Shown: piece after piece, positions 50,485 to 64,000 of the stretch
Position numbering within the stretch: position 1 is the first letter of the stretch
Layout of the letters: each line of letters begins with the position of its first letter
Origin: Clostridia bacterium
Lineage (GTDB): Bacteria; Bacillota; Clostridia; Christensenellales; Aristaeellaceae
Direction of reading: 5' to 3'
NCBI GenBank assembly: GCA_017541105.1
Contig: JAFXZS010000008.1
Coordinates: 1-64,000, forward strand
Length of the DNA: 64,000 nt
Notes under the pieces: generated by a model
Database searches by the model: none
What the model saw: the letters and a program-made list of their open reading frames with translations, nothing else
What the model was told of the DNA's origin: nothing
Translations under genes and position numbers: made by a program

Positions 50485-52173
50485 TCAGGCGGGATCCTCC
50501 TCCTCCTGGAGTCCGAAGAAGAACCTGCGCTGGAACTCATTGCGGATGACATGCACCGGTTTGAGCTGGGCGGCGGCGGTTCCGCGGTGGATCATCACGT
50601 CGCGGTACAGGAGATAGGTTTCCGGCTGAAGGAGAAGAAGCCGCGGTTCATCCAGATAGCCGTTTTCAAAATCCTCGACAATGTCCTTGTTCGCCTCCAT
50701 GAGTTTTTCCTTCAGGCATCGCCGGATGTCGTCCCGGGTCACATCCTTCGGGCGGCGGCGAAGCTCCAGCAGGACCACATAGCCGGGCGGAACGGCGTCC
50801 GTATCGGCATAGACCGAATAATCCGTCACATCGATCCCGAGGGCTTTTTCCGTTTCCTCGATCATGCTGCGCACGGCGGGTTCGGAGGTCTTTTCACCGC
50901 GGATGTTGACGGCGAAGCCCTCCCGGGTCTCAAACTGAATCAGAGGCGTCTTATTGTGCCGGCCGGTCACCCGGATCACGTCATGCATGCGGTAGCGGTA
51001 GAGGCCGGAATAATTGGTGATAATCAGCTCGTAGCACTTGTTCTCTTCCAGCCTGTCCATGGTCAGGCAGGGCGCGCCGGGGTCGTTGATGTCGCGGAAC
51101 TCCATGAAGCATCCGTCCGGAACGAGGATCGTGTCCGGATCATCCATCCCCCGGACCACGGAGAATGTGCCCTCGGACGCGGCGACACCGAAATAGAACA
51201 CATGGATCCCGTCTCCGAGGATATACTTCCGGAGTTTCTCCGTATAGGGAGAAAAGTTGGCGCCGCAGACGCTGAGGATGTATTCCATTTTGGGCCATAC
51301 CCGCCGGGCCCACGGCGTATCAAAGCCCTGGGCAAAGGCGGCCCGGAGCTCCGCGGCACGCTTCGGGTCGGGCCGGATCTGCGCAAGGAGGGAGGCGCGG
51401 ACTGCCTCCGGAAGATTGACGTTCTCGTCAATCGTTCCCTGTTCAATATCCTTCAGGAGCATCTCGTGGTTATCCTCAATATACCGGAAGATCTCCAGCA
51501 TGATGCTGGCAAACGTGGAGATCGCGTAGGTCGCGTTGCGCTCCGCCAGGGCGAAGCGGGCGTGGATATAGCGGGTCACGACGCCCTCCCCCGGCTGGCG
51601 GGCCTCCATCGGGGATGTGTAGATCTGGGACATCATGTTCTTGAAGGGGCCGTCCTTGACCGCGACGGAAGAAGCGCAGCCGTATGTGGCGCCGGTGGGC
51701 AGCACCTCGGCGTTTCCTTCCTGCAGGTTGATGCCCTTGCCGTTGTTCCAGCGGTAGCCGAGATGGGAGGAGACCACGGCGTTGGTATAGAGGGCAAAGT
51801 ATTTTCCGTTGATGGAAACCTGTTTTTTCGACAGCGGAATATACTTGGCGCAGCCCAGGGTCCCGGAGGTCTTGTTGTAGTGGGTGATATGCTCGGCGGT
51901 CAGGACGTTGTCCTCGCCCCGGACCATCCGCTCGATATAGGGGGCGAATCCGTCATATTCCCGGATGGGTACGCGGGCCTGGTACTCCTCAATGGAATGA
52001 ATCTCCGAAAACCCGTGCAGCCTGCCGTATTCCGTATCCCTGTTCTCCTGCAGCACCGAAAGCAGCAGCTGTTCCTGGGCCGCGCGGGGATCCAGAGTCA
52101 TCTTTTCCAGGCTCCGCATCGGGCCTTTCCCGATCAGGGACATCAGTTTCATCATCTGGCCGTAAACAGACAT
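50485..52173 (-). CDS. GH3 auxin-responsive-type acyl-acid-amido synthetase
   Basis: A 562-residue protein of the plant-GH3/JAR1-like family of adenylating enzymes (not glycoside hydrolase family 3). Visible family motifs are the phosphate-binding loop region HYNKTSGTLGCAKYIPLS (about residues 97-115), a YFGVAASEGTF motif in the middle and the adenylate-binding ELIITNYSGLYRYRMHDVIR motif. In plants these enzymes adenylate a carboxylate and join it to an amino acid; bacterial members are mostly uncharacterised. SD AGAGGAGG is well placed. It lies downstream of the radical-SAM and peptide genes on the same strand, 320 bases away and beyond a hairpin, so a shared function is possible but unproven. 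Confidence 0.85.
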   Translation of the reverse strand: MSVYGQMMKLMSLIGKGPMRSLEKMTLDPRAAQEQLLLSVLQENRDTEYGRLHGFSEIHSIEEYQARVPIREYDGFAPYIERMVRGEDNVLTAEHITHYNKTSGTLGCAKYIPLSKKQVSINGKYFALYTNAVVSSHLGYRWNNGKGINLQEGNAEVLPTGATYGCASSVAVKDGPFKNMMSQIYTSPMEARQPGEGVVTRYIHARFALAERNATYAISTFASIMLEIFRYIEDNHEMLLKDIEQGTIDENVNLPEAVRASLLAQIRPDPKRAAELRAAFAQGFDTPWARRVWPKMEYILSVCGANFSPYTEKLRKYILGDGIHVFYFGVAASEGTFSVVRGMDDPDTILVPDGCFMEFRDINDPGAPCLTMDRLEENKCYELIITNYSGLYRYRMHDVIRVTGRHNKTPLIQFETREGFAVNIRGEKTSEPAVRSMIEETEKALGIDVTDYSVYADTDAVPPGYVVLLELRRRPKDVTRDDIRRCLKEKLMEANKDIVEDFENGYLDEPRLLLLQPETYLLYRDVMIHRGTAAAQLKPVHVIRNEFQRRFFFGLQEEEDPA

Positions 52174-53960: not shown

Positions 53961-54062
53961 ATTTGGGAGTTTCAGGAAAAAACGTTCCCCCTTCCGGGAT
54001 GTTTTCGATAAAAAATCGGAAACAGCCGGCCCCGGCGCAGCCTTCCCGGCTTCCCTTCGCTC

Positions 54063-56931: not shown

Positions 56932-58164
56932 ATGAATAAAAAAGCCATTCGGAAAATCCTGAACGATACGGACTATATCCGCGTCAGCGGGTCCGCGGAG
57001 GAAAAGAAAGCTGCCGCGTACCTCCGGGATCTGTGCGGCCGCCTCGGGGTATCGGCGGATCTGGAGCCTTTTGACGTGGACACCGCGGAAATCCGTGACG
57101 CGGCGCTGGCCGCGGACGGCCGGGAGATTCCCTGCAAAGGATACAAACTGTGCGGCAGCGGCAGTGCGGAGGCCCCGCTGTGCTATCTGCCCAATACGGA
57201 TCCTGCCTCTGTTGCGCTGGCAAAAGGAAAGATCGTCCTTCTGGATACCGGGATCACTTACTGGGTTTATCAGGATCTGCTGGATGCCGGGGCTGCCGGG
57301 ATCATCACCTATGACGGAAACATTCACTTTCCGGACCGGGATATCGATCAGAGGACGCTTCGCCCGTATGTCTCAAAGGGAAGAAAAATCCCCTGCGTCA
57401 ACATCAACGCCAAGGATGCCCTCGGGCTGGTGAAGGCCGCACCGAAGGCGGTTTCGGTCCGCGTGGAACAGACGGAATCCGTCTCCTCCTCCCAGAACGT
57501 CATCGCGGAGATTCCTGGGCGGACAGACGAATGGATCGCCCTGACCGCGCATTATGATTCCACCCCGTTGTCCCGCGGCGCCTATGACAACATGTCCGGC
57601 TGCATCGGCCTGCTCGGCATCATGGAAGCGCTGCGCGGCAGGGCGCCCCTCCGCTACGGCCTCCGCTTCATCTTCTGCGGCAGCGAGGAGGTCGGCCTCC
57701 TCGGCTCCAAGGCATACACTGCCGCGCACGAAGACGCGCTGGAAAAGATCGCCCTGAACATCAACCTGGATATGATCGGCACATATATGGGCCGCTTCAT
57801 CGCCTGCGTCAGCGCCGAAGACAGGCTGATGCATTATATTGAATACCTGTGCGCGCAGCGCGGCTGGGGGATCGCCGCCCGGCAGGATGTGTATTCCAGC
57901 GACTCCACACCCTTCGCGGACCGCGGGGTCCCCGCCCTCTCCTTTGCCCGGCTCGCGCCGCCCTCCCAGGCGGTGATCCACAACCGCTATGATACGGGAT
58001 CGCTGCTGTCGGAAGCGCAGCTGATTTCCGACATCGGCTTCCTGGCGGACTTTACGCTGCAGATGGCGGACGCCGTGAAATGCCCTGTGTCCCGGGAGAT
58101 CCCCGAAGCGGTCAAAACGAAACTGGACGAGTACCTGCTCCGGAAGCGCAAAAAAGGAACCTGA
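56932..58164 (+). CDS. M28-family metallopeptidase with PA-like insertion
   Basis: 410 residues. Residues 75-165 form a PA-type insertion (GKIVLLDTGITYWVYQDLLD, AGAAGIITYDG). The M28 core follows with zinc ligands in the expected order: His in WIALTAHYDS, Asp in GAYDNMSG, Glu-Glu in FIFCGSEEVGLLGS, Asp in NINLDMIGTY and His in AVIHNRYDT. These define an aminopeptidase-type dizinc centre. No signal peptide is visible, so it is probably cytoplasmic. It stands alone between divergent and convergent neighbours and is a possible but unsupported candidate for trimming the nearby RiPP-like peptide. Confidence 0.87.
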   Translation: MNKKAIRKILNDTDYIRVSGSAEEKKAAAYLRDLCGRLGVSADLEPFDVDTAEIRDAALAADGREIPCKGYKLCGSGSAEAPLCYLPNTDPASVALAKGKIVLLDTGITYWVYQDLLDAGAAGIITYDGNIHFPDRDIDQRTLRPYVSKGRKIPCVNINAKDALGLVKAAPKAVSVRVEQTESVSSSQNVIAEIPGRTDEWIALTAHYDSTPLSRGAYDNMSGCIGLLGIMEALRGRAPLRYGLRFIFCGSEEVGLLGSKAYTAAHEDALEKIALNINLDMIGTYMGRFIACVSAEDRLMHYIEYLCAQRGWGIAARQDVYSSDSTPFADRGVPALSFARLAPPSQAVIHNRYDTGSLLSEAQLISDIGFLADFTLQMADAVKCPVSREIPEAVKTKLDEYLLRKRKKGT

Positions 58165-58182: not shown

Positions 58183-59235
58183 TCAGATGTCCGGCAGCTG
58201 CCGGATGAGGCCGCAGCATTTATAGTTTCCCAGGGTCGTGTATTCGGTCTCCACACCCTTCTCCCCGGCCAGCTGTTTCACATGCTTCAGTTCGGGATCG
58301 GACGCATGGCCGGGATCGATCAGCAGCTTCCAGGGCACCCGGCGCAGCAGGACCCGGGTGGTTTCCCCGATCCCGGGCTTGATATAATTGAGGTTTTCGA
58401 TGCCGTACCGCTCCGCGATCCGGTGCACGGTGTGCATGCCGGACACGGCGGGCAGGCCGGGTTCCGCTGTCTCCGGAACGTCACGGAAGAGCTTTTCGAT
58501 TCCGTCAATAAACTCATAGGTCCTGTCTTCGCCTGCCAGTTCCGGATAGCAGACCGCTCCGTGAAAATCATGTTCGCCGATCAGGTCCTCCCGCAGGACC
58601 GTTCGGCTGATCAGGCCGCAGACCGTGCAGTTCAGGCAGGAGCTGGCGATCATCAGGTCCTCATGCGTGCCGCACAGCTCAGTCAGTCCGGCAGGATCGG
58701 CCACAACCGCGAGATCGTCCGGAATCCCCTCGAAGGACGAGATCGCCTTCCGCAGTTCCCGGAAGATCACGCCTTTGCCGGTCCACCCGTCCAGAAACTG
58801 AAGGGTGCCCGCTTCATGCCGGTTCAGAAGATACCGGACCGCGTTTCCGTCGATTCCCCGGTCCCGGATGATGGAGATGGAATAATGGGGACAGCTGATC
58901 CCGTACTTTCTCCGGAGATACCGCCGGACCAGCACGCCCAGCGGTGTTCCCGCCCTTGCCAGGGAAACGATCACCACGTCCTTCCCCTTTTTCCGGACGA
59001 TCTTTTCGGCGACTCTGGCCACGGCATCCGCGGTGCTCTGGCCGGACAGCCGCAGCGATTCCTCATAAATCCTGATATATTCTTCGGAAGGGCGGTACTC
59101 CAGCGGAAGCATTTCCGAATAATGGGTGCCGCTCTGAATCCGTTTTTCCCTTTCCCGGGTGGGAACCGGCGCGATTGCCCCGGTCAGGTCCTTGAGCAAC
59201 AGCGTAACATCCTCCGGTCTGAAACTGCTGGTCAT
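58183..59235 (-). CDS. StiP/PRTase_1-like protein of the ter-associated pathway
   Basis: A 350-residue protein whose middle carries a phosphoribosyltransferase-like core: KGKDVVIVSLARAGTPLGVLVRRYL (about residues 83-107), CPHYSISIIRDRGID, and the phosphate-binding-type loop LQFLDGWTGKGVIFREL. The C-terminus ends in a cysteine-bearing tail (GNYKCCGLIRQLPDI). The family has been labelled cysteine protease StiP, but comparative genomics places it as one of two PRTases in the tellurite-resistance-linked biosynthetic module. Its start overlaps the preceding gene's stop by four bases. Last gene of the operon, 18 bases from the convergent peptidase gene. Confidence 0.8.
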   Translation of the reverse strand: MTSSFRPEDVTLLLKDLTGAIAPVPTREREKRIQSGTHYSEMLPLEYRPSEEYIRIYEESLRLSGQSTADAVARVAEKIVRKKGKDVVIVSLARAGTPLGVLVRRYLRRKYGISCPHYSISIIRDRGIDGNAVRYLLNRHEAGTLQFLDGWTGKGVIFRELRKAISSFEGIPDDLAVVADPAGLTELCGTHEDLMIASSCLNCTVCGLISRTVLREDLIGEHDFHGAVCYPELAGEDRTYEFIDGIEKLFRDVPETAEPGLPAVSGMHTVHRIAERYGIENLNYIKPGIGETTRVLLRRVPWKLLIDPGHASDPELKHVKQLAGEKGVETEYTTLGNYKCCGLIRQLPDI

Positions 59236-60377
59236 ATGGTTCCCTCATTTTCCGCATACTGCCATCTGACAACCGTGACATGCCGGTTGCCTGCCATTTC
59301 CAGCGCCCTGCACAGATCCCCCAGGCCCGGGGAAGGATCCGCGGCGTCCGTCAGTACAAGGACGCTGTCATATTGCCGCAGGTTATATACAAACGTGGTC
59401 CGCTCCGGATCGTACGGGCTCCGCAGGCAGATTCTGCTGTCCAGCGGATACCCTTCCCGGCCGGAAGCGATGATCGGGCTTCTGGTCGTGGAATGGATCC
59501 GGACTTCCTTCGCATATCCCTGCTGCCGGATCATCTCCCCGGCCGCAAACGTCGGATACATGAACTCTTCCGTGCCGAGCACCAGGACCCGGCCCGGGCA
59601 CACAGGACGGTCCGGAAGAGAATGAACGGCCTCCGCGGCATAAGCCCTGACTGCCGCCTGGTACTCCTGAAAGGAAACCAGATTCCGGGGATTCACAGGA
59701 CAGAAAAACGTATTGCCGGCACGTCCGGGTTCACTGCCGCCCCGCGCGGTCAGATGCCTCTCCGGATCGAACCCGACATCCAGGATGCTGTCCTTTCCGT
59801 ACTCATACGGAATCCGGTGCAGAAAAACGCAGTCGATCCCCTGCTGATGCAGTTCCCTGAGCCGTTCCTCCGGCATGCTGTTCAGCACGGAAACGATCGA
59901 AAAGCGCAGCCTCTCCGCGTGAAACCTGCTTTTGATCAGGCGGATCAGATGGCAGATCGTGTTTCCTGTCGTCACCTCATCGTCAATAAAGAGGATCCTG
60001 CGGACGTTTTTCAGGGCTTCCCCGATCCCGTCCGCGCGCAGCAGCTGATCCGTCGCGTGGCTGTGCACCTCGGAGAACAGGATACAGTCCCCGCCGTTTG
60101 ATTCCCGGGTCGTATTCTGATAATACACCGCGTGATGCAGGAAAGACGCCGCGCAGGCCGCGATCCCCGTTGCCGTTTCAGCAAATCCGATCACATAGAG
60201 CGGGTCATCGGGATAGGCCGCGTTCACGGCTTCGGCGAGGGCGCTGCACATTCCGACGGCATCCGCCGGATCGGTCGGAATGTGCTTTCCCTGCAGCGGA
60301 TTGACAAACAGATAAGGCCGGATGCTGTTGTTTTCCCGCTTTGCCGGGAGAACCAGCCGATCGGCGGAATACTGCAA
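59232..60377 (-). CDS. Phosphoribosyltransferase with C-terminal TRSP domain
   Basis: 381 residues from TTG 60377, with GAGGAGG eight bases upstream. The N-terminal half is an orotate-PRTase-like fold: YVIGFAETATGIAACAASFL, and the PRPP loop RRILFIDDEVTTGNT (about residues 130-144) with the paired acidic residues. The C-terminal 150 residues (VLVLGTEEFMYPTFAAGEMI, TTRSPIIA, YPLDSRICLRSPYDPERTTF) match the TRSP domain, named for its Thr-Arg-Ser-Pro motif, which is visible here as TTRSP. This fusion is characteristic of the ter-associated nucleoside-like pathway. It is 13 bases from the lyase gene and overlaps the StiP-like gene. Confidence 0.85.
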   Translation of the reverse strand: MQYSADRLVLPAKRENNSIRPYLFVNPLQGKHIPTDPADAVGMCSALAEAVNAAYPDDPLYVIGFAETATGIAACAASFLHHAVYYQNTTRESNGGDCILFSEVHSHATDQLLRADGIGEALKNVRRILFIDDEVTTGNTICHLIRLIKSRFHAERLRFSIVSVLNSMPEERLRELHQQGIDCVFLHRIPYEYGKDSILDVGFDPERHLTARGGSEPGRAGNTFFCPVNPRNLVSFQEYQAAVRAYAAEAVHSLPDRPVCPGRVLVLGTEEFMYPTFAAGEMIRQQGYAKEVRIHSTTRSPIIASGREGYPLDSRICLRSPYDPERTTFVYNLRQYDSVLVLTDAADPSPGLGDLCRALEMAGNRHVTVVRWQYAENEGTI

Positions 60378-60390
60378 GATGGATCCCTCC

Positions 60391-61356
60391 TCAGAGAATG
60401 CCGTAGATTTCAGCCAGGGTAATCGTCTTCAAAGCCCAGTTGGTATGGGTCTTAACTTCGTTCATCCGTTCCCCCGCGAAGCTCTTTCCGACCTGTAATC
60501 CGTTTTCATCCCAGTTCAGAATTTCCCTGGCGTCCTCGTAATCTTTCCGGGAAACTTTCAGCGCCTCGTTCACCACGCCGATCTGTTTGGGATGGATTAC
60601 GGTTTTTCCGATGAATCCGTTGAGCCTGTCCAGTTTCAATTCGTTCTGCAGGCCCGTTTTCCACTCTTCGTTATCGCTGGAGAAGAACTCCCAGACCGGC
60701 CCCGACACCACATAGTCCCCGGAGAAAACCGTCAGGATCTCTCCCAGCAGCTGGGCGATGGGCAGGATCTCATAAATCGTTTCGTCATAATGCCTTCTGG
60801 CCGCAAACATGTTTGAAAAATCATTCCCGCCCACGCGAATGTTCAGGACGTACTCCCGCACGGAATCAATCTTCTCCTTCAGGGCAGTCAGGGTCTCCCG
60901 CCTGGTGGAATAAGCGGCGATATCCCTGCTTTCCAGGATCGGCATCATATGGATCTTCTTCCCGGCCCGTTCATTGATCCGGATGACCGTCCCGTTATAA
61001 TCATCCGCGTTGGAGAGCGAATACTTCGGAAAAATATAGCCGCAAAGGATCCCGTAGAACGCGGAGAGCCTTTTGTCCAGGCGCTGCAGCTGTTCGCAGG
61101 ATCTGACCCGCACGAAGATCTTCGGCAGATAAAACGCCCTGTCCCGGCGCTCCCGGTCAATCCTCTCCAGCGTATGCTCCAGCTGTTCCTCCGCCGGACC
61201 GACATCGCTGTCCGAAATGGTGTCCTCCAGGCAGAGCGCCAGGGAATACATGTTCCCGAATCTCCCGCTCACGACGGATTCCGCAATCTTTCCGTTCAAA
61301 GCCGGAGTGTACAGGAGCGCTCCCACACTGTATTTCTCTTTCATCTGATCCATCAT
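60391..61356 (-). CDS. HpcH/HpaI-type C-C bond lyase of the ter-associated pathway
   Basis: About 321 residues. ATG 61356 (or the adjacent 61353) has GGAGG nine bases upstream and lies 16 bases after the HAD stop; the longer frame to 61455 lies inside that gene. The TIM-barrel lyase fold is indicated by SLALCLEDTISDSDV (the metal-binding Glu-Asp), LPKIFVRVRS, GTVIRINERAGKKIHMMPIL and ESRDIAAY. It ends with NGFIGKTVIHPKQIGVVNEA, a segment seen in citrate-lyase-beta-like proteins. In the proposed pathway it would make or break a carbon-carbon bond on a sugar-like intermediate. Confidence 0.85.
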   Translation of the reverse strand: MMDQMKEKYSVGALLYTPALNGKIAESVVSGRFGNMYSLALCLEDTISDSDVGPAEEQLEHTLERIDRERRDRAFYLPKIFVRVRSCEQLQRLDKRLSAFYGILCGYIFPKYSLSNADDYNGTVIRINERAGKKIHMMPILESRDIAAYSTRRETLTALKEKIDSVREYVLNIRVGGNDFSNMFAARRHYDETIYEILPIAQLLGEILTVFSGDYVVSGPVWEFFSSDNEEWKTGLQNELKLDRLNGFIGKTVIHPKQIGVVNEALKVSRKDYEDAREILNWDENGLQVGKSFAGERMNEVKTHTNWALKTITLAEIYGIL

Positions 61357-61372
61357 GGCCGCTTTCCTCCGA

Positions 61373-62128
61373 TTAAAATTTCCCTGTCCGATGCAGCGCT
61401 TCAAGCGCGCGGCAGATCTGGTCCGACAGGATTTCTCCCGCCAGCTTCCCGGCATTCGGATGGCGAAGCTTTCCGCAGACGGATGCCGGCGCCAGCGGAA
61501 AATCCACCGCTTCCAGCATCGGAATATCCATTATACTGTCTCCGGCGCCGGCTGACACATTGATTTCGTATTTTTCCGCGAAACGCCGGACAGCCGTCCC
61601 CTTGCAGACGTTCTGCGGAAAAAGATACACCTTGCCGTGATCATGGCTGATCCGGATCCTGCCCTTCCGGTTCCCGCGTTCCAGGGCGCCGCAGATCCTT
61701 TCCGGTTCAGCCGTTTTCACGTAGTAATAATAGCGCTCCGGTGCATGAACCTCCTGACCGCACAGCTCCCCCAGCCGTTTCCCGAGCTCTTCCAGTTCCG
61801 GAAGGTCTTCCCGTACCAGCTCCATCGTCCGCTCCGACCATTCCCGGTCTTCCGCGCCGTCAGCCAGAAGCTTGCCCCCGTTGCAGACCAGCGCGTACCG
61901 GATATGGAAATCCTCCGGAAACTGCAGCCTCCGGTACTGCGCTTCCGACCGTGTTGTCACCGGGATCAGGGAAAGCCAGCCGGCCGTCCTGAAAAAGGAC
62001 CAGGCCTCCTGCGTCATATAGCTCTGCTCTTTCCCGTCCAGTCTTTCCACCGGGACCTTCGGGCCGGGAATTCGGATCCGGTGGGAATAGATCAGCGTGT
62101 GATCCAGGTCCGAGAAAAATGCGTTCAC
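61373..62128 (-). CDS. HAD-family phosphatase of the ter-associated pathway
   Basis: A 251-residue HAD hydrolase of the Cof/sucrose-phosphatase type: motif I FFSDLDHTLIYS, motif II IPVTTRSEAQYRRL, a C2-type cap with LVCNGGKLLADG, and motif IV SAGAGDSIMDIPMLEAVD. It would dephosphorylate a pathway intermediate. AGGGTG lies before ATG 62128. It is 30 bases after the ATP-grasp gene and 16 before the lyase start. Confidence 0.85.
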   Translation of the reverse strand: MNAFFSDLDHTLIYSHRIRIPGPKVPVERLDGKEQSYMTQEAWSFFRTAGWLSLIPVTTRSEAQYRRLQFPEDFHIRYALVCNGGKLLADGAEDREWSERTMELVREDLPELEELGKRLGELCGQEVHAPERYYYYVKTAEPERICGALERGNRKGRIRISHDHGKVYLFPQNVCKGTAVRRFAEKYEINVSAGAGDSIMDIPMLEAVDFPLAPASVCGKLRHPNAGKLAGEILSDQICRALEALHRTGKF

Positions 62129-62158
62129 CCTATCAGCTCCTCAAACCGGCGGGCCGGT

Positions 62159-63178
62159 TCAGATCGTTTCCTCCGCCGGCTCCATGAGGACCGGCTGCAG
62201 GACCTGTGCCACAATCTTCGTTTCCCGGTTCAGCTGCCACTCCGTTTCCTCCCCGATCATTTTCCTGAAGGCGATCTGCGGCAGGTTTACGCCGCCGGCG
62301 AGGCAGCCCATCTGGACCCCGCCGGACATCCTGGTGTTCACTTCCAGGAAATAAGGCGTCCCGTCCAGGTATTTAAACTGGATATTATACGGGCATTCCA
62401 GGGCGGCTTCCCGCTGGAAGCGCTCGCACAGCCGGATGATCTCATCGTCATACCTGAAGATCTCATACTTCTCGTAGCTCTTGACGCGCGGAAGCATGAT
62501 CAGCCCCTGCTTCGTGTTCAGGCAGTCCACGCTGACCTCATCGCCGGACAGGAACGGCATGACCATGACCGGTGCGAACACCTCCCGCTCGGAAAATGCG
62601 GCAACCGCTTCCTCCAGGGTGATCCGCGTCGTCTGTTTTTTGAACAGCGCCGCATAGCCTTTCCGCTGATTATCAATCAGGCGGTAGCTTTTTCCGCCCT
62701 CGTCCCGGACAAACTTGAAGCAGACCTGGCTGTACTTCTGCGCAAGCTCCTCATAAGCCTTCACAAAATCCTCCGCGGTTTTGACGATGAAATAATCCGG
62801 AACCGCCCCGATCCCCTTCTCGGCGAAGAACCGGAACGCCTGGTCCTTGCGGTTCAGAACCGAGACCATCGCGTACCGGTCCGCCATGACCCGGACGCCC
62901 GCTTTTTCAAACCGGTCCCGGTGCTCGCTGATGCTCACCATCCCGCGCCGGGGCATAAATACCCGGACGCCGTGCGCCTGGCAGAACTCCAGGCAGAACT
63001 CAACATATTCGTCGTCCTTCAGAACAGGCTCCTGATACCATTCGTCGCAGGCATTCCTGATCACCGAGAGCGCGTGCTCGTTGGTACAGATCAGATGAAT
63101 GTCCGGGTTGTCCTTCCTCAGCAGCTCAATGATATTCACCGCTGTACTGAACCAATGGTTCATCCATACTGTCGTCAT
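62159..63178 (-). CDS. ATP-grasp ligase of the ter-associated pathway
   Basis: About 339 residues. ATG 63178 is chosen because a TATAAT box overlaps the region just upstream of the alternative ATG 63220, which would put that codon at or before the transcription start. The ATP-grasp fold shows the preATP-grasp region (VRVFMPRRGMVSISEHRDRF), the lysine-bearing strand CFKFVRDEGGKSYRLI, FAPVMVMPFLSGDEVSVDCL, and the metal site IQFKYLDGTPYFLEVNTRMSGG with Glu-x-Asn. It would join a carboxylate to an amine or similar. First gene of the five-gene operon. Confidence 0.85.
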   Translation of the reverse strand: MTTVWMNHWFSTAVNIIELLRKDNPDIHLICTNEHALSVIRNACDEWYQEPVLKDDEYVEFCLEFCQAHGVRVFMPRRGMVSISEHRDRFEKAGVRVMADRYAMVSVLNRKDQAFRFFAEKGIGAVPDYFIVKTAEDFVKAYEELAQKYSQVCFKFVRDEGGKSYRLIDNQRKGYAALFKKQTTRITLEEAVAAFSEREVFAPVMVMPFLSGDEVSVDCLNTKQGLIMLPRVKSYEKYEIFRYDDEIIRLCERFQREAALECPYNIQFKYLDGTPYFLEVNTRMSGGVQMGCLAGGVNLPQIAFRKMIGEETEWQLNRETKIVAQVLQPVLMEPAEETI

Positions 63179-63303: not shown

Positions 63304-63331
63304 TTGACAGTGTTCCCCATCCGCGTATACT
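63304..63331 (+). promoter_or_regulatory. Promoter of the P-type ATPase gene
   Basis: TTGACA (63304-63309), a 16-base spacer and TATACT (63326-63331), 40 bases before the ATG. Confidence 0.75.
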
Positions 63332-63370
63332 TGTACTGTCCGAAGAATGAACATGCTTGGAGGGATCGGA

Positions 63371-64000
63371 ATGGCAGAACAGAAAAATGACAGCCGCGCC
63401 CATGAGGTGGAGCAGGAGCTGATCGCCGTCAGCCGCCTGGATGACGCCGCGCTGTTTGAAAAGTACCGGACAGAGCCGGACGGCCTGAACCAGGTCGAGG
63501 CGGCCGAGCGCCTGGAGGAATACGGAAGGAACATCATCGAGGTCGGCAATGAAAACAGCCTGCTCCGGCGGATCCGGGACGCGCTGATCAACCCCTTCAA
63601 TATCGTGCTGATGGTCGTTGCGCTGGTCACGCTGTTTACCGACGTGATCCTTTCCGATACCCCCAACCCCGCCACCTTTATCATGCTGGTGCTGGTGATC
63701 ATCATTTCCGGCGTCATCGCGTTTGTCCAATCGGAAAGGTCCAACAGCGCCGCGCAGAAACTGCAGCGGATGATCTCCAACCGCATTGACGTGATCCGCA
63801 ACGGAAGCGCGATGGAGATCAGCATCGAGGAGGCCGTGCCGGGCGACATCGTCAAGCTGGCTTCCGGGGATATGATTCCCGGCGACGTGCGCTTCATCGA
63901 AGCGAAGGACCTGTTTATCGATCAGTCCCAGCTGACCGGTGAAAGCAATCCCGTGGAAAAGTTTGCCGGGCCGGATCCCGAAGGCAGCGGCCTGGATGAA
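63371..64000 (+). CDS. MgtA-type P-type ATPase, N-terminal part
   Basis: The gene runs off the right edge; 210 codons are visible from ATG 63371 (GGAGGG seven bases upstream). The cation-ATPase N-terminal domain (GLNQVEAAERLEEYGRNIIE) is followed by two transmembrane helices (INPFNIVLMVVALVTLFTDV; FIMLVLVIIISGVIAFVQSE) and the actuator domain (AVPGDIVKLASGDMIPGDVR, QSQLTGESNPVEKF). The spacing and the FVQSERSNSAAQKLQRM segment are closest to magnesium-importing MgtA/MgtB ATPases. The phosphorylation motif DKTGT lies beyond the window, so the ion is not certain. It is divergent from the ter-associated operon. Confidence 0.85.
   Translation, partial: MAEQKNDSRAHEVEQELIAVSRLDDAALFEKYRTEPDGLNQVEAAERLEEYGRNIIEVGNENSLLRRIRDALINPFNIVLMVVALVTLFTDVILSDTPNPATFIMLVLVIIISGVIAFVQSERSNSAAQKLQRMISNRIDVIRNGSAMEISIEEAVPGDIVKLASGDMIPGDVRFIEAKDLFIDQSQLTGESNPVEKFAGPDPEGSGLDE

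Follow-up and report, generated by a model that had tools for sequence, protein, structure and literature searches.

What is a biosynthetic operon of the type found at ter stress-response loci doing where no ter gene is in view? The question is raised by a window of 64,000 nucleotides (the whole stretch of DNA analysed here) from a Clostridia-like genome, in which five open reading frames (ORFs) on the minus strand form an operon at 58183-63178. On balance, we favour the reading that these genes are the biosynthetic half of a ter (tellurite-resistance) stress-response locus, still intact, which this lineage probably gained by horizontal transfer and which is seen here apart from the sensor/membrane half formed by the ter genes. 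The ter-associated biosynthetic cluster was reportedly described by Anantharaman, Iyer and Aravind in 2012. The claims of that comparative-genomics study are taken here as relayed in the accessible parts of the citing papers PMC7824862, PMC8115787 and PMC5571608.

Gene content and integrity of the operon

The operon is composed of the following genes, in gene order:

62159..63178, minus strand, gene 1: ATP-grasp ligase (ATPgrasp_Ter, PF15632; 111.8 bits against a cut-off of 29.1; E 2.6e-32)
61373..62128, minus strand: HAD-IIB-type phosphatase, GTG start (Pfam Hydrolase_3, E 3.4e-4)
60391..61356, minus strand: C-C_Bond_Lyase of the CitE / malyl-CoA lyase superfamily (PF15617, 325.9 bits, E 3.4e-97)
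59232..60377, minus strand: PRTase_2 + TRSP protein, TTG start (PF15609, E 1.7e-37, and PF12500, E 5.8e-23)
58183..59235, minus strand, final gene: StiP + PELOTA_1 (PF11202, E 1.2e-100, and PF15608, E 5.1e-30)

Starts were picked from the sequence inside longer ORFs, the lyase ATG being 61356 or 61353. For four of the proteins the Pfam matches are far beyond chance, with HAD as the exception: its Hydrolase_3 score of 20.9 bits equals the cut-off exactly, and its NCBIfam matches to the Cof, MPGP and SPP subfamilies each fall below theirs. The N domain of the ATP-grasp protein is PylC-like (PF21360), its nearest PDB sequence is 2pn1 (1.8e-8), and by family matches its kin are PylC-like and carbamoyl-phosphate-synthase-like ligases; PDB profile matches of the lyase include 5vxc (2.6e-8) and 5ugr (9.5e-6). 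A preliminary description of this DNA had claimed ATP-grasp, HAD, lyase, PRTase-TRSP and StiP/PRTase_1 proteins (PRTase_1 being an earlier name of PF11202), a tight operon and membership of the ter-associated biosynthetic cluster. The families are borne out by Pfam, the ORF coordinates reproduce the spacing (30, 16 and 13 bases in gene order, then a 4-base overlap) and, with all five families in one operon, the membership holds as well.

Conservation was assessed in columns at least 95% conserved among relatives from the fetched loci, the window copy being left out (16, 52, 56, 77 and 86 relatives aligned, in gene order, some of them near-duplicates; a length filter removed four rows). The window operon retains 217 of 217 such near-invariant columns over the five families: 23/23 in the ATP-grasp protein, 17/17 in HAD (D7, D9 and D197 among them), 48/48 in the lyase (R82, E141 and D178 among them, numbered from ATG 61353), 40/40 in the PRTase_2 + TRSP protein, including the phosphoribosyl pyrophosphate (PRPP) loop, and 89/89 in StiP, including its loop. 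Judged from its sequence, the operon looks intact and functional. Since some of the usual locus is out of view, one might suspect a non-functional ter locus in decay; however, the five frames are open, the spacing is tight and every conserved column is kept, which makes decay hardly credible.

Among relatives in named genomes (at least 596 found), the loci of the best 80 were compared up to 10 kb from StiP, 41 of them with full flanks. PRTase_2 was detected in 72 of the 80, the lyase in 54, HAD in 50, ATP-grasp in 15 and all five genes in 10; the full-flank loci gave 37, 27, 27, 7 and 4, respectively, all of these counts being lower bounds because many contigs end early and the ATP-grasp hidden Markov model (HMM) has few seeds. 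PRTase_2 and StiP are the core of the set, while ATP-grasp looks optional. Calling the operon complete, as the preliminary description did, therefore calls for some caution, since relatives' loci seldom show all five genes. That description had taken it as evidence against its reading if the five genes were not found together in relatives; this did not come about, PRTase_2 and StiP accompanying each other in 37 of the 41 full-flank loci. The order of the window (ATP-grasp-HAD-lyase-PRTase_2-StiP) is complete in a single one of the 41 full-flank loci.

In a protein search, the StiP family was recovered on 2567 of 72,556 plasmid records, all below 60% identity, and it occurs in 3 of 50,697 phage records. 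The record MT836648.1 ('Bacteriophage sp.', unverified) carries PRTase_2, StiP, an inverted lyase, three TerD genes and a partial P-type ATPase, and resembles a fragment from a Lachnospiraceae-like ter locus. Another record labelled viral, IMGVR_UViG_3300019373_000210, holds lyase, PRTase_2, StiP, HAD and ATP-grasp genes with no TerD within 10 kb, and may be bacterial DNA.

Ter genes, origin and flanks

The preliminary description had noted the absence of TerB, TerC and TerD in view and pointed to the next 20 kb rightward as the place to look for terD, terC, terB or vWA genes. None was found there, nor in the 10 kb beyond: our own HMMs for TerD, TerC, TerB, vWA and AIM24 gave no match right of the operon up to contig position 94,000 (stretches L022 and L023), and on the left side the same models were run from contig position 54001 only. 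Genome-wide, TerD and TerC had no match in 1.92 Mb, in an assembly that is 62% complete, and neither had the vWA protein from the ter locus of the closest relative; this genome-wide absence covers TerD and TerC, TerB and TelA having been left out of that search. Within these limits the noted absence is upheld. Moreover, none of 45 genomes examined in the genus has TerD, and 13 of these are of high quality.

A competing explanation, to which we assign only slightly less than an even chance, is that ordinary ter genes lie in the unassembled 38% of the genome and that the operon is merely separated from them. Indeed, TerD is present in 97 of 100 StiP-carrying genomes (47/50 and 50/50; G292 and G522 are one genome counted twice, single counting giving 96/99), the StiP genomes found without it being G468, G502 and G514 (completeness not given). 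Furthermore, 16 of the 41 full-flank loci lack TerD within 10 kb, and 15 of these 16 genomes have it elsewhere. In the single-contig genome G363, about 1 Mb separates TerD (near 0.32 Mb) from StiP (1.35 Mb), and the ter halves can therefore lie far from each other; at its StiP locus (L034), just HAD and StiP were found by our own HMMs in the 20 kb read. On the other hand, the uniform lack of TerD in the genus speaks against such hidden genes, as do the nearest relatives, L119 and L120, where TerD precedes the operon on one contig and in the same orientation. With 62% completeness and TerD in nearly all StiP genomes, 'ter-less' is not proven; a ter-free genome is possible, while the operon is detached from ter genes locally, no TerD being present in the same locus.

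As to the origin, no StiP was found in any of 36 congeners. Among 396 genomes of the order, two have a StiP match over the cut-off: that of the window and G630, the locus of the latter being of the standard type with TerD and a P-type ATPase. Across the phylum, 21 of 398 genomes have StiP, the window's included, and 18 of the 20 other loci have TerD in the stretch read. The top-ranked StiP relatives among the matches listed are three Clostridia metagenome-assembled genomes (MAGs), at 71-72% identity in the StiP domain, and the window StiP clusters with L119-L121 at a Shimodaira-Hasegawa-like approximate likelihood ratio support (SH-aLRT) of 99 in a quick tree for which the thorough search was not completed. 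L119 (CANQLX010000005.1) and L120 (CANPXK010000006.1) bear isolate names with 'Lapin', hence rabbit by name. Identity to these two is 67% for StiP, 64-69% for the lyase, 53-57% for PRTase_2 and 47-49% for HAD (48.8% to L120), and the ATP-grasp protein is 65% identical to that of L120 only. L120 is arranged ATP-grasp-(AIM24)-HAD-lyase-PRTase_2-StiP; ahead of this block, in the same orientation, come vWA, PP2C, leucine-rich-repeat and transglutaminase-like genes and two TerD. In L119, HAD-lyase-PRTase_2-StiP follow vWA and two TerD on the same strand, with ATP-grasp not detected; the L121 contig ends at StiP, and TerD and vWA were not found in its genome.

The lack of StiP in congeners, together with a position downstream of ter genes in two of the three nearest kin, suggests that the biosynthetic half was acquired. 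The array that stands upstream in these kin is missing from the window. The GC content at third codon positions (GC3) of the operon, 0.71-0.80, resembles that of three neighbouring genes (0.77-0.80), with much lower values in L119/L120 (0.30-0.41); an AT-rich source would imply that the genes were retained over a long period of amelioration. The simplest reading is an acquisition that is not recent and that involved the biosynthetic half only.

The operon is bordered by two genes outside the system:

56932..58164, plus strand: M28 peptidase, host-type (PF04389)
63347..64000, plus strand, continuing to contig position 65992: MgtA-type Mg2+ P-type ATPase (TIGR01524)

These host-type genes lie 18 bases from the operon on one side and 168 on the other. 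Near full-length homologues of the M28 gene are 56-84% identical in 14 congeners, with another at 35%, and MgtA relatives are 87-89% identical in six (in one case the gene is divided between two contigs, in another it has an internal stop); on the contigs examined, MgtA was never next to the M28 gene in these six. The congener flank matches come singly, M28 or MgtA alone; L107 also matches a GH3-fold glycosidase, and L108 and L114 match distant pieces. An assembly chimera or mis-binned fragment, foreign to this genome, would account for the lack of StiP in congeners and of a syntenic empty site, yet we consider it very unlikely given the close congener homologues of both flanking genes, GC and GC3 of the operon that match the flanks, and a contig of 243,742 bases.

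P-type ATPases are frequent at the ter loci of relatives, and the preliminary description had held a metal link through the MgtA-like neighbour to be plausible. This link was rejected. The window ATPase scores 1044 bits with TIGR01524 (NCBIfam cut-off 610.75) and is not listed over cut-off for TIGR01517, in contrast to the ter-locus ATPases, which are PMCA-type Ca2+ pumps with TIGR01517 over cut-off in five of five tested of nine such loci. With a Mg2+ pump of the MgtA type here and Ca2+ pumps there, the neighbouring ATPase is probably coincidental.

Beside the frequency of TerD in StiP genomes, which would make a truly ter-free genome unusual with 38% of the sequence missing, several observations weigh against an acquired, intact and detached biosynthetic half. 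The closest lyase among relatives (70.6%) belongs to L147, a Ruminococcus flavefaciens MAG, the short contig of which has the same five-gene order as the window, and from the sequence comparisons the five genes do not all appear to indicate one source. A high-GC source may be an alternative to amelioration. No empty insertion site was recovered, as there was no junction in the 13 congener stretches compared. In addition, the HAD assignment rests on a score at the cut-off, and for the pathway discussed below we infer both the order of steps and the nucleoside-like product.

Complementary scans of the window were made. No Rfam family reached the gathering threshold and no tRNA was detected. Promoter-like sites numbered 3 against 1.8 expected and terminator-like sites 5 against 5.1; the best promoter-like site, at 63304-63331 on the plus strand, points toward mgtA, whilst from the operon start to 63500 none was seen on the minus strand. 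An anti-phage system was considered and rejected, the models giving just weak PRTase and specificity-subunit matches. Further left, the product of 50485-52173 belongs to the GH3 acyl-adenylating proteins (PF03321, 6.8e-77), which are best known from plant hormone conjugation.

Protein folds and a putative pathway

The StiP structure model (pLDDT, the predicted local distance difference test, of 94.8) matches the PyrR/HGPRT fold in fold searches. As modelled, StiP would be a phosphoribosyltransferase (PRTase), contrary to the 'cysteine protease' label, which is attached to 28 of the 30 plasmid matches listed, out of 2567 records. No protease is named among the best 50 fold matches listed in each of two StiP searches, the matches including one cysteine desulfurase at rank 31 (probability 0.44); C200 and several His residues of StiP are conserved among relatives. 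The canonical PRPP loop consists of two acidic residues followed by TTG. StiP does not have this loop and carries a non-standard DGWTGKG, in the context LDGWTGKG; its PELOTA_1 domain gives weak L7Ae matches (best E 0.02, profile positions 279-336).

The PRTase_2 domain is APRT-like, with the PRPP loop IDDEVTTGNT, and the protein has a PRTase fold by fold search, which hardly probes the TRSP half. PRTase_2 thus shows both the fold and the loop of a type I phosphoribosyltransferase, and StiP the fold. TRSP (PF12500, the C-terminal half of 59232-60377) compares with the PRTase_2 profile at a probability of 77.9 and looks, at the profile level, like a second PRTase-type domain; the term 'TRSP domain' was not found in the open-licence papers checked for it. 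Profile comparisons between StiP and PRTase_2 are weak (probability 9.6 and 20.5), and their kinship therefore rests on fold. That the two PRTase-like proteins might fall into unrelated families, as the preliminary description had allowed, is not what was found, both being PRTases by fold.

A route can be proposed in which the APRT-like PRTase_2 enzyme would join a base-like acceptor and PRPP, the CitE-type lyase would form or cleave a C-C bond of a carboxylic-acid precursor, the ATP-grasp ligase would couple the lyase-derived carboxylate to an amine, and the HAD enzyme would remove phosphate to give a nucleoside-like product. StiP, with its PRTase fold, altered PRPP loop and L7Ae-like domain, could serve as a second glycosidic-bond enzyme or as a product sensor. 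Carboxylate coupling combined with PRTase and phosphatase steps would fit a nucleoside-like product. Lyase relatives at 34-36% identity are present in congeners G024 (L211, L212), G027 (L213) and G036 (L214), with a fragment in G010, and neither StiP nor TerD was found in the genomes of G024, G027 and G036. Two of these contexts were read: L214 has MmgE/PrpD, aldo/keto reductase, thiamine-pyrophosphate-enzyme and fumarase genes, and L211 an ATP-grasp ligase, MmgE/PrpD and a 2-hydroxyacid dehydrogenase. They suggest that a carboxylic acid passes from the lyase to the ATP-grasp enzyme for coupling; by such neighbourhoods, the C-C_Bond_Lyase family is also in non-ter use.

PyrR regulates pyrimidine operons. 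By analogy, StiP might be a sensor or regulator instead of a pathway enzyme, the PRTase domain binding the product nucleotide and the L7Ae-like domain RNA, an option that we regard as possible though rather unlikely. More speculative still, and improbable in our estimate, is a free-standing pathway, in which the nucleoside-like product would have a non-Ter receiver, namely a PyrR-like StiP binding the product and, via its L7Ae-like domain, RNA, in a genus without TerD; with TRSP as a second PRTase domain, three PRTase-type domains would then act on one small molecule.

In the accessible literature, the cluster product is still termed a predicted nucleoside-like metabolite. The available parts of PMC7824862, PMC8115787, PMC12054061, PMC5571608, PMC9933665 and PMC6262375 contain no product name, and no chemical identification of the product was found in what could be seen of the open-licence literature searched. 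A compact 5-kb operon without surrounding ter genes offers a handy unit in which to look for the molecule, and the PRTase reading of StiP and TRSP alters which reactions to seek, besides arguing against the 'cysteine protease' label.

Comparison with known systems

The operon is a genuine and seemingly intact representative of an already known cluster type, whose customary partner genes have not been seen here. It shares all five families, in a single operon, with the ter-associated biosynthetic cluster, and differs in that no ter gene is found beside it or in the 1.92 Mb assembly. L119 and L120 have the gene order of the window, but with two TerD and vWA upstream. The ter locus of the Klebsiella pneumoniae plasmid pOCUhvKP1 has the same five genes with vWA and TerD genes nearby; however, its order is ATP-grasp-PRTase_2-HAD-StiP-lyase, divergent from its ter genes, and its StiP is about 34% identical. 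In the Alkaliphilus plasmid pB6464, lyase, PRTase_2, StiP and HAD likewise form one block, although there it is followed by two TerD, AIM24 and a PMCA-type Ca2+ ATPase, and no ATP-grasp was detected by HMM in its 25 kb stretch. At the protein level, StiP and PRTase_2 share their fold with PyrR, HGPRT and APRT, from which StiP departs by its altered PRPP loop and L7Ae-like domain, and PRTase_2 by its extra TRSP domain. As for the other half, terZ-F by themselves give tellurite resistance in Escherichia coli MG1655 according to the accessible part of PMC8115787; on that account ter genes can work in the absence of the biosynthetic set.

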